DNA of 64,000 nt from Streptomyces nymphaeiformis (GTDB taxonomy: Bacteria; Actinomycetota; Actinomycetes; Streptomycetales; Streptomycetaceae), in contig NZ_JACHJY010000003.1 in assembly GCF_014203895.1 (NCBI RefSeq), positions 806,001 through 870,000 on the forward strand, written 5' to 3'. Below the pieces are notes generated by a model, which did not search any database, was not told the origin of the DNA, and saw only the letters and a list, made by a program, of their open reading frames with translations. Shown one piece after another: positions 1,551 through 3,825 of the stretch (position 1 is its first letter; every line of letters starts with the position of its first letter). Made by a program: the position numbers and the translations under genes.

Positions 1551-1829
1551 TCAGGAGGTGCCGGGCTCGCGGTGGTGGGCGGCGATGCCGAAGCGGCGCT
1601 GTTCGCCGGGAGCGGAGTCGACCGGGTGCAGCCCGGAGAGCGAGCTGACCACCTGCTCGTCGGCAGGCTTCTCCGCCGCCTCGAGTTCCTCCAGGTCAGC
1701 GGCGGAGACCAGGGCGACGAGCGGCTTCCCGTGCCGGGTGACGACGACGCGCTCGCCGCCGTAGACGACGCGGTTGATGAGGTCGGCGAGCTCAGCCCGC
1801 GCTTGCGTCACCGGGATCTCGTAGGTCAT
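1551..1829 (-). CDS. Phd/YefM-family antitoxin-like protein, no adjacent toxin
   Basis: A 92-residue protein ([20 protein letters not shown]) with the classic prevent-host-death/YefM fold motif: [18 protein letters not shown], then [23 protein letters not shown]. Such proteins are DNA-binding antitoxins that repress their own operon and bind a RelE- or Doc-type toxin through their C-terminus. Here the C-terminal half ([16 protein letters not shown] onward) is long and charged, and no toxin gene lies downstream: 1332-1550 has no plausible small ORF before ureA. An in-frame ATG at 1838 is an alternative start; an AGGAG lies only one base before the ATG at 1829, so neither start has a well-spaced ribosome site. 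The gene is divergent from a ClpP-like gene, with a TGTACA-type inverted repeat between them. Confidence 0.85.
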
Positions 1830-1847
1830 GCTCCTCATCTTACGGCC

Positions 1848-1862
1848 TGTACGTCCTGTACA
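1848..1862. promoter_or_regulatory. TGTAC-n5-GTACA inverted repeat, candidate YefM/Phd operator
   Basis: The sequence TGTAC GTCCT GTACA is a perfect 5-bp inverted repeat in the 63-base gap between the divergent antitoxin and ClpP-like genes. It contains the hexamer TGTACA, the core recognised by E. coli YefM-YoeB at its own operator. TGTA at 1857-1860 also pairs with TACA further right (1868-1871). The position suits autoregulation of the antitoxin and control of the ClpP-like gene by the same site. Binding is inferred. Confidence 0.55.
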
Positions 1863-1892
1863 TTTTTTACAGACAGCTGGAGGTGCTCAGCC

Positions 1893-2510
1893 ATGGATGC
1901 CCGCCACGTCCTTCCCGAGTTCACGGAGCGGACCAGTTTCGGAACGCGAACCCTCGACCCGTACTCGAAGCTCCTCGAGTCCCGGATCGTCTTCCTCGGC
2001 ACCCCGATCGACGACACCTCGGCCAACGACGTCATCGCCCAGTTCCTGCACCTCGACTACGCGGCCCCCGGTCAGGACATCGCGCTCTACATCAACTCCC
2101 CCGGCGGCTCGATCAGCGCCATGACCGCGATCCACGACACGATGCGGACGCTCTCCTGCGACGTGGAGACCACCTGCCTCGGACAGGCCGCCTCCACCGC
2201 CGCCGTCCTGCTCGCCGCCGGCACCCCCGGCAAGCGGCTCGTCCTCCCCGGCGCCCGGGTCACCCTCCGCCAGCCGGCCATGGACGAACCCCTCCAGGGA
2301 CAGCCGAGCGACCTCGACATCCACGCGCGCGAGCTGCTCCGGCTGCGCGCCCTGACGGCCGGGATGCTCGCCCAGTACACCGGGCAGAGCCGGGACCGGA
2401 TCGACGCCGACATCGACCGCCTCACCGTCCTGGACGCGCCGGCGGCCGTCGCGTACGGCCTGGTGGACCACGTGATCACGAACCGGCGCGACGCCGGTGC
2501 GGCGCGGTGA
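1893..2510 (+). CDS. ClpP-family protein with degenerate catalytic triad
   Basis: A 205-residue protein clearly homologous to ClpP, the barrel-forming serine peptidase of the Clp machine: [34 protein letters not shown] and AVAYGLVD are all present. Aligned by eye to E. coli ClpP, the nucleophile Ser is kept (Ser101). The catalytic His of the IHQP motif is Arg126 (LRQP), and the catalytic Asp of the RDRFL motif is Leu177 (DRLTVL). There is a two-residue insertion after RQP. It should be peptidase-inactive or use another chemistry, similar in principle to the ClpR subunits of plants and cyanobacteria. The start is an ATG at 1893 with GGAGG at 1879-1883. It is divergent from an orphan antitoxin and followed by a small unknown gene. 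Confidence 0.9.
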
Positions 2511-2517
2511 GCCGGCC

Positions 2518-2823
2518 GTGGTGCCCGAGCTGCCGCCGCTGCCCGCGCTGACGCGGGCCGAGGGCGAGTTGATCGACGCCTACCTCGAAGTCGTCGACCT
2601 CCTTGGGAAGATCAACCCATCCAGGGGTACGCATACCTATGGGGCACTACGGGCGGCACAGGCCCTGGTGGGACGTGCGGAGGCGCTGCGCGAGGCCCTG
2701 ACGCTCATGCATATGCGGGGCGAGAGCGAGGTGCACGCGGACACACTGGCGCGCGCCCTGCGGGTGTTGGACGGCGAGCGCCGCACCGACCGCGTCACCG
2801 TCCCCCGCGCACGGGCGAGTTGA
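2518..2823 (+). CDS. small hypothetical protein downstream of the ClpP-like gene
   Basis: A frame of about 101 residues, probably starting at a GTG at 2518 or 2521 (VPELPPLPALTRAEGELIDAYLEVVDLL). It begins 8-11 bases after the ClpP-like stop codon, which suggests co-transcription. The protein looks mostly alpha-helical, with leucine/alanine-rich amphipathic stretches, and ends in an arginine-rich tail. I do not recognise a family. A lower-GC patch near 2605-2660 is unlike the neighbouring genes. Because it sits next to the degenerate ClpP, a partner or adaptor role can be proposed but not shown. Confidence 0.6.
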   Translation: MVPELPPLPALTRAEGELIDAYLEVVDLLGKINPSRGTHTYGALRAAQALVGRAEALREALTLMHMRGESEVHADTLARALRVLDGERRTDRVTVPRARAS

Positions 2824-3147: not shown

Positions 3148-3335
3148 ACGCCGAGTCCTGCCGCTGTCCCGGACGTCTGGTCGACAGGAGTGGATCGGCA
3201 GGAGTGGAGGACCCAGGCAGTACGGGACGTACGCGCTGTTTCCGCAGCGGGGCCGTCCCTTGGGGTGAAGCCGCAGCCGCGGCCGGGCATCTTCGCCAGC
3301 CCGAACCCGACAGGTCATCCTTCGCAGGCGGCTGA
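3148..3335 (+). ncRNA. ydaO/yuaA-type cyclic di-AMP riboswitch
   Basis: The leader of the NlpC/P60 gene carries the ydaO landmarks in order: GCCGAGTCCTG near 3150, GGAGGACCCAGGCA near 3206, TTGGGGTGAAGCCGCA near 3260, GGGCATCTTCGCCAGCCC near 3285, and CCCGACAGGTCATCC with TTCGCAGGCG near 3306-3330. This class binds cyclic di-AMP and in actinomycetes typically precedes cell-wall hydrolase genes. The hydrolase start codon follows 14 bases after the element. High c-di-AMP normally turns expression off in this family. Boundaries are approximate. Confidence 0.85.
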
Positions 3336-3348
3336 CGAAGGGTTGCGC

Positions 3349-3825
3349 ATGACTGCGCAGATGCACGTCCCGTCCCTGCTGTCCCGGGCCGGAGCCGTCA
3401 CGGCTCTCACCCTCGCCGCCGTCGGCGGCACGATGCTCGCACCAGGTGCGGCGTCCGAGGCCCAGGCGGCGACCACCTACGCGAACAAGGCACTGAGCGT
3501 CGCCGCGTCCAAGAAGGGAGCCCCGTACCGGTACGGGAGCGCGGGACCCTCCCGGTTCGACTGCTCCGGTCTGACGCTCTACGCGTACAAGCAGGCGGGC
3601 AAGTGGCTGCCCCGCACCGCGCAGCAGCAGTACAACAACACCCGGCACGTCTCCGCGTCCAGCAGACAGAAGGGGGACCTGGTCTTCTTCCACTCCGGCG
3701 GGAGCGTCTACCACGTGGGCATCTACGCCGGCAGCGGCAAGATCTGGCACTCGCCCAAGACGGGATCCTGGGTGAAGCTCGACCCGATCTGGACGTCGAA
3801 GGTCTACTACGGCCGCGTCCGATGA
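3349..3825 (+). CDS. secreted NlpC/P60 peptidoglycan endopeptidase
   Basis: A 158-residue secreted cysteine peptidase that should cleave peptide stems of peptidoglycan outside the membrane. Residues 1-40 form a signal peptide (hydrophobic run TALTLAAVGGTML, likely cleavage after AQA). The rest is one compact NlpC/P60 domain with the catalytic Cys in RFDCSGLT, the His in VYHVGIYAG, and a third polar residue in IWHSPKTG. There is no coiled coil, SH3 or LysM region, so it is a minimal enzyme. The start is an ATG with GAAGGG upstream. It lies directly behind a c-di-AMP riboswitch, the usual arrangement for streptomycete wall hydrolases involved in germination and growth. Confidence 0.92.
   Translation: MTAQMHVPSLLSRAGAVTALTLAAVGGTMLAPGAASEAQAATTYANKALSVAASKKGAPYRYGSAGPSRFDCSGLTLYAYKQAGKWLPRTAQQQYNNTRHVSASSRQKGDLVFFHSGGSVYHVGIYAGSGKIWHSPKTGSWVKLDPIWTSKVYYGRVR

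Follow-up and report, generated by a model that had tools for sequence, protein, structure and literature searches.

Organization of the locus

The DNA analysed here is a window of 64,000 nucleotides (the whole stretch under study) from the genome of Streptomyces nymphaeiformis, a 9.2 Mb assembly in 32 contigs, and the subject of this report is a compact group of genes at positions 1551–2823 of that window. Reading from left to right, the urease beta and gamma genes and a Phd/YefM-family regulator gene (phd, 1551–1829), all on the minus strand, are followed by a conserved 25 bp operator (1848–1872), and then by a clpP homologue (1893–2510), a small open reading frame (ORF; about 2518–2823) and an NlpC/P60 peptidase gene. 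An earlier note, made from the sequence alone, had described a Phd/YefM gene facing a ClpP homologue and a small ORF across a shared control region, and this description holds, with corrections to two of the gene starts. On balance we consider it rather probable that the locus is a regulated cassette for a spare Clp subunit, in which the orphan Phd protein acts as a switch for a ClpP2-type, ClpR-like subunit and a small accessory protein.

The product of phd matches the Pfam family PhdYeFM_antitox (PF02604, E 4e-13) and TIGR01552 (E 6e-16), and stretches of the protein are near-invariant across its relatives. The longest ORF starts at 1838, but the gene probably starts at 1829, since the N-terminal sequence M(T/A)YEIPVTQ is conserved and places the start codon at 1827–1829, giving a protein of 92 amino acids; the in-frame ATG upstream (1836–1838) overlaps the hexamer TAAGAT (1837–1842, minus strand), a −10-like element of the phd promoter read from the sequence. 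This hexamer is TATGAT in many relatives, is kept in loci with an adjacent phd and is lost where phd is displaced. A generic promoter and terminator scan gave no match, and the generic sigma-70 scan misses the hexamer.

The operator TGTACGTCCTGTACATTTTTTACAG (plus strand) lies between phd and clpP and contains a YefM-type TGTACA core. It is followed by a GGAGG ribosome-binding site (1879–1883, plus strand, read from the sequence) and by the clpP homologue, also on the plus strand, which encodes 205 amino acids. The longest ORF for the small protein, again on the plus strand, runs from 2497, but we place its start at about 2518 because the conserved part begins near V-V-P-E; the resulting protein of about 101 amino acids is the presumed partner of ClpP. 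With this start the gene begins 7 nucleotides behind the clpP stop codon, a spacing common to many relatives.

Conservation of the unit and its operator

The phd–clpP–small gene order was looked for beyond close relatives and is widespread in the family. Thirty clpP loci were compared, comprising that of the window and 29 others from the same genus taken for high score and not at random. The small ORF lies directly downstream of clpP in all 30, and phd is present within the examined stretch in 26, being divergent and within 178 nucleotides in 24 of these and 0.9–1.3 kb away in the other two. In a sample of 391 genomes of the order, the small-protein profile matches 314 genomes, the phd profile 325 and the operator pattern, allowing up to three mismatches, 277. 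The joint count, made from hand-copied lists, is 306, 292 and 277 respectively after exclusion of eight weak matches to the small protein, taken as remnants, and of 33 weak ones to phd, taken as paralogues. On this count 277 of the 292 genomes that possess a phd orthologue have the operator, and none of the 99 that lack one does; these 99 include 19 genomes in which the small gene is present (one of these loci, L078, was inspected directly). The operator pattern read backwards has no match in the same sample. Within this sample of the order, phd orthologues (E below 1e-30) were seen only in the family of the window.

The genomes in which phd lies apart from clpP are the most informative as to what the operator serves. 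All ten of these are operator-positive, and in every one the 3 kb surrounding phd lack an operator-like site; in the seven for which its position was listed, the operator lies beside the small gene. Operator conservation was counted without the anchor columns used for alignment and with loci classed by phd distance. In the 11 loci where phd is more than 400 nucleotides away or outside the examined stretch the operator columns are 93 % identical and the flanks 51 %; the corresponding values are 95 % and 64 % for 47 loci with phd nearby, and 89 % and 63 % for five loci at an intermediate distance. The operator core is present in all 63 clpP loci examined from the same family and absent from two loci of another class. 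A plasmid copy of the unit, in which RefSeq names the products Phd/YefM antitoxin, Clp proteolytic subunit and hypothetical protein, has three genes between phd and clpP, and there too the operator remains at clpP. Among plasmid records the small gene was found in two, both from Streptomyces, and no copy was found among phage records at an E-value of 1e-5.

Since the operator is kept at clpP and a displaced phd has no operator of its own, Phd most likely controls clpP and the small gene directly, in trans if need be, and very probably acts on the operator at 1848–1872. The co-occurrence of operator and regulator across genomes fits an action of Phd on the clpP–small promoter, although the pattern does not fix the sign of the regulation.

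The operator pattern, TGTAC(R)TCCTGTACATTTTTTAC, i.e. TGTAC(G/A)TCCTGTACATTTTTTACAG, contains the TGTACA core described for the YefM-YoeB and Axe-Txe operators (PMC7730913, PMC4803016, PMC3303803). No second match within three mismatches occurs in the window, and none was seen in 100 shuffles. When the whole genome was searched with the 18 bp operator core there were one exact match and four with three mismatches, and a reversed control gave one. All four extra matches fall inside open frames of more than 150 codons, one of them within an amino-acid transporter gene; long open frames are weak evidence because the DNA is GC-rich, and the frame around one of the matches (L039) looks non-coding. 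For a wider regulon, no convincing second operator target was found in the genome.

That Phd might be an activator of clpP and the small gene, rather than a repressor, seems to us rather unlikely. The operator lies at a variable distance upstream of the clpP start codon (about 31 to 84 nucleotides in the relatives read), which suits an activator, and its absence where phd is absent fits either sign. However, YefM-type antitoxins repress in the cases studied in the literature consulted (PMC7730913), and by eye the site overlaps the expected −35 and spacer region of the phd promoter. Repression of the clpP–small operon, and of phd itself where the two are divergent, is the sign that we prefer.

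The ClpP paralogue and its active site

The ClpP homologue matches PF00574 (E 8e-61), and trees group it with actinobacterial ClpP2 and not with ClpP1 (support 100/99 and 99/98). Among solved chains its sequence is closest to the ClpP2 of entry 5dzk, which we take to be the Mycobacterium tuberculosis protein. The genome contains three ClpP-family matches, an adjacent ClpP1/ClpP2-type pair and the homologue in the window. The clpP family of S. lividans, for which Viala et al. in 2000 are reportedly the source, suggests a name for the latter. In that species clpP1P2 and clpP3P4 pairs are described together with a single extra gene, clpP5 (PMC9765437), and because the five-ClpP genomes of the genus that we read likewise have two pairs and a single gene, the protein is presumably ClpP5.

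In an alignment with the ClpP1 and ClpP2 from its own genome, which each have the Ser-His-Asp triad, the window protein keeps the nucleophile (Ser101, codon 2193–2195) and has Arg126 (2268–2270) at the catalytic His position and Leu177 (2421–2423) at the catalytic Asp position; judged by these residues it is non-catalytic. The suggestion that the ClpP is degenerate and probably inactive is supported by sequence for this protein but does not extend to the family, since the triad is lost in only 36 of 62 orthologues, and inactivity therefore does not define the unit. These orthologues come from high-scoring loci, a truncated copy (L073) and three duplicate loci having been left out. On a tree built without the three triad columns, the intact and lost states require at least eight changes (bootstrap range 7–10, with four forced by well-supported branches), compared with 20.5 for shuffled labels, and the minimum numbers of changes for the individual residues are nine for Ser, five for His and five for Asp. 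Median pairwise ratios of nonsynonymous to synonymous substitution rates (dN/dS; NG86 method, pairs with dS 0.05–1.5) are 0.34 for clpP, 0.18 for the small gene and 0.23 for phd. By this measure selection on clpP is purifying despite the repeated loss of the triad.

A reason why the triad might be dispensable is offered by Streptomyces ClpP1P2, in which the serine of ClpP1 is essential, that of ClpP2 is dispensable and the Clp ATPases dock on ClpP2, as reported in the source consulted (PMC9765437). Because ClpP2 catalysis is dispensable there, we read ClpP5 as a candidate alternative docking ring of the ClpR kind: a ClpP2-type ring on ClpP1 would have a dispensable active site, and its triad could therefore decay while the protein persists. 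The docking pocket of S. hawaiiensis ClpP2 is given as Ser94, Tyr96 and Tyr116 (PMC9765437), and the corresponding positions of the window protein are Ala64, Tyr66 and Thr86. Tyr66 is invariant in 64 of 64 aligned rows, and the third position is aromatic in 52 of the 62 orthologues.

The ten orthologues without an aromatic residue at this third position form the clade of the window protein, and all ten are triad-less. Loss of the aromatic only in triad-less proteins suggests weaker ATPase docking and is an argument for a different view, in which triad-less ClpP5 is a dominant-negative or capping inhibitor of ClpP1P2 that is switched on by release of Phd; ClpP-ADEP provides a precedent for a ClpP paralogue that disrupts ClpP1 complexes (PMC12607617). 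We think this unlikely, as 52 of the 62 orthologues retain the aromatic and 26 the triad, and the pattern can be explained without inhibition. Improbable, too, is simple decay of a duplicate gene, with the operator a relic and triad loss neutral. The repeated losses themselves are what decay would produce, a few genomes (L073, L076 and L078) have lost clpP or keep a truncated copy, and its dN/dS is the highest of the three genes; but the triad-less proteins are full length with dN/dS well under 1 (0.355 between the window and L005), Tyr66 does not vary and identity in the operator columns far exceeds that in the flanks.

In keeping with a dispensable active site, changes to the triad are also seen in other ClpP2-type paralogues. 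In a ClpP3/P4-type clade the ClpP2-type member has Gly at the His column in eight of eight representatives of the genus, which read S-G-D and in one case S-G-E, and a ninth member, which comes from a different family within the order, retains His but has Ala at the Ser position. One genome (G004) has an extra ClpP1/ClpP2-type pair (L103) with Gln at the His position of the ClpP2-type member. The eight proteins with Gly and the one with Gln all have ClpP1-type partners that keep the triad, and 10 of 10 housekeeping-type ClpP2 copies keep it too. Judged by these residues, the ClpP3/P4-type back-up core may be half non-catalytic. Among loci L004–L033, the 15 genomes with three ClpP matches include 2 with an intact ClpP5 triad and the 15 with five matches include 8, a difference confounded by kinship.

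The small protein

The small protein, described in the earlier note as helical and of no known family, has no match in Pfam, NCBIfam or PHROG, and an AlphaFold2 model of it consists of helices (predicted local distance difference test score, pLDDT, 72). Foldseek returned nothing with this model at E ≤ 0.001, and a profile search of solved structures gave nothing credible (best E 0.037). The gene is nevertheless better conserved than clpP (dN/dS 0.18 versus 0.34).

In a sample of 396 genomes of the phylum, 12 contain the small protein; ten of these belong to the same genus (the source genome among them) and two to another class. In the latter two (L079 and L080) the small gene comes after that of a ClpP2-type paralogue whose triad is intact; no phd or operator is present in the examined stretch, and by eye a response-regulator-like gene adjoins. 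A search of genome contigs with the other-class small protein confirmed one locus among the matches listed. We considered whether the other-class ClpP is an orthologue of ClpP5, but this was rejected by the approximately unbiased test (p-AU 7.6e-6), the protein grouping with ClpPs of its own lineage. Two separate ClpP lineages thus include an extra ClpP2-type paralogue linked to the small gene, a recurrence that favours a functional partnership (or, alternatively, a transfer of the small gene). The proposed unit of phd, clpP and small gene stands as a conserved unit with its control region; in another class, a clpP–small pair is found with no phd next to it. In L081, where clpP is gone or damaged, only a remnant of the small gene is left.

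The orphan antitoxin

The earlier note's statement that no toxin lies beside Phd is upheld, the gene downstream of phd being ureA. Searches of the genome for ParE/RelE (PF05016) and YoeB (PF06769) families, which matched in eight and three of 14 control genomes respectively, gave no matches; PIN-domain toxins were not searched for. No toxin family was recognized among nine hand-picked ORFs from six of the ten relocated phd loci. A search with PF02661 found two Fic proteins in the genome, both away from phd. One of them is of Doc length (127 amino acids, C1:90304; L148, 1291–1878) and is preceded immediately, with no gap, by an ORF of 67 amino acids that by eye resembles a ribbon-helix-helix (RHH) antitoxin; these two genes are likely, from their sequences, to be a toxin–antitoxin pair with a non-Phd antitoxin. 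A hidden toxin for Phd is, within the families covered, unlikely. That Phd is still an antitoxin whose toxin is encoded elsewhere, with clpP an incidental neighbour merely sharing the promoter region, is very improbable: its family membership and the presence of a Doc-length Fic protein would allow it, but the ParE/RelE and YoeB families are absent, the Doc-like gene appears to have an antitoxin of its own, and the operator stays with clpP and not with phd when the two are separated.

Beyond the small gene, a cyclic di-AMP (ydaO) riboswitch (3224–3345) lies directly upstream of the NlpC/P60 peptidase gene (3349–3825).

A model for the phd–clpP5–small unit

We infer that the Phd/YefM protein has ceased to belong to a toxin–antitoxin pair and would act as a dedicated DNA-binding regulator. 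It would bind TGTACRTCCTGTACATTTTTTACAG (1848–1872) and most likely repress clpP5 and the small gene, so that a fall in its level would allow both proteins to be made. ClpP5 would then form a heptameric, non-catalytic ring on ClpP1 in place of ClpP2 and so change which unfoldases or substrates reach the ClpP1 chamber, with the small protein serving as an accessory of the ClpP1–ClpP5 assembly, perhaps as an adaptor, cap or assembly factor.

Several observations weigh against this model. The two half-sites of the operator are 9 bp apart from centre to centre (1850.5 to 1859.5, read from the sequence), compared with 12 bp in YefM operators. Fifteen of the 292 phd-positive genomes lack the operator at three mismatches; weaker sites are missed because of this cut-off, and a locus from one of the fifteen (L077) still has TGTACGTCCTGTACGTTT. 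Treating the 33 weak phd matches as orthologues changes the operator count to 277 of 325 genomes with phd and none of 66 without. Because the genomes are related, the 277 cases represent far fewer independent events, and eight of the ten relocated phd genes have upstream sequences similar by eye and may reflect one old move. As to ClpP5, 26 of the 62 orthologues retain the full triad and the structural model is poor (pLDDT 58). The idea of ATPase docking is weakened for the clade of the window protein by its loss of the aromatic residue (Thr86 here), and in these proteins the ring may dock differently or act as a cap or decoy. For S. cattleya, each of whose six ClpPs was co-expressed with ClpX in E. 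coli, ClpP1, ClpP3, ClpP4 and ClpP5 are listed as shortening the half-life of the antitoxin RelB, and ClpP2 and ClpP6 are absent from that list (PMC4989188). The single-gene ClpPs of that species are ClpP3 and the plasmid-borne ClpP6, its numbering being unlike that of S. lividans (PMC4989188), and if ClpP3 is the orthologue of the window protein this would speak for activity. Finally, phd, the operator and clpP are present without the small gene in one locus (L145), and the small gene is still found at loci where clpP5 has been deleted (L076) or truncated (L073) or is missing altogether (L078); given this survival, the small protein probably contacts the Clp machinery beyond ClpP5.

The model can be taken one step further. 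It is plausible that Phd is itself removed by Clp or Lon, and that the circuit senses proteolytic capacity as the earlier note had suggested, because antitoxins are protease targets and the Streptomyces regulators PopR and ClgR are reported to be degraded in a ClpP1P2-dependent manner (PMC9765437). A full homeostatic circuit, in which a repressor of antitoxin type would itself be a substrate of Clp, would signal Clp capacity and would set the supply of a non-catalytic ClpP2-type ring and its helper, so re-aiming the ClpP1 chamber to other unfoldases or substrates, with the small protein as a new class of Clp accessory, is in our view doubtful.

Comparison with known systems and implications

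The unit resembles several characterized systems and differs in some feature from each of them. With YefM-YoeB and Axe-Txe (of E. coli and Enterococcus, and SCO2235/2236 of Streptomyces, whose reported palindromes deviate from the TGTACA core) it shares the Phd/YefM family, a paired operator with a TGTACA core over the promoter and a divergent gene. It differs in its lack of a toxin, in the shorter distance between its half-sites and in its conserved target, which is the clpP operon even with phd elsewhere. S. lividans clpP5, presumed orthologous from gene number, is likewise a lone clpP additional to the clpP1P2 and clpP3P4 pairs, but is described in the source consulted as monocistronic (PMC9765437), whereas the clpP of the window is directly followed by a conserved small gene. 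The PopR–clpP3clpP4 and ClgR–clpP1clpP2 systems of the same species also provide a clpP operon with a dedicated regulator, although PopR and ClgR, which are mutually paralogous, are reported to act as activators and to be degraded by Clp (PMC9765437), whereas Phd belongs to an antitoxin family. ClpR of cyanobacteria, plastids and apicoplasts is a triad-less ClpP homologue that complements an active ClpP, with the small accessory ClpT in plastids (PMC7966870); in contrast, the ClpP of the window groups with actinobacterial ClpP2 (in trees that did not include ClpR) and triad loss in its family is still in progress. The small protein differs from ClpT at least in that it matched no Pfam family. 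A phd–clpP–small unit is described in no title listed by searches of the open-access literature, where broad queries covered the top-ranked titles and subscription papers were mostly outside the scope.

The unit is conserved in most of the genus sample and is most plausibly a switch of domesticated antitoxin type that serves a spare, ClpR-like subunit of Clp. It supplies ClpP5 with a candidate dedicated regulator, an operator and an uncharacterized small partner, together with evidence that its catalytic site is dispensable, and it would be a clear example of an antitoxin-type protein that most of the genus sample retains for transcriptional control of one target. Should the capacity-sensing circuit prove true, it would be a homeostatic circuit of new design and the small protein would represent a new class of Clp accessory factor. 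More generally, the repeated loss of the triad suggests that ClpP2-type subunits in Streptomyces repeatedly become ClpR-like pseudo-proteases.

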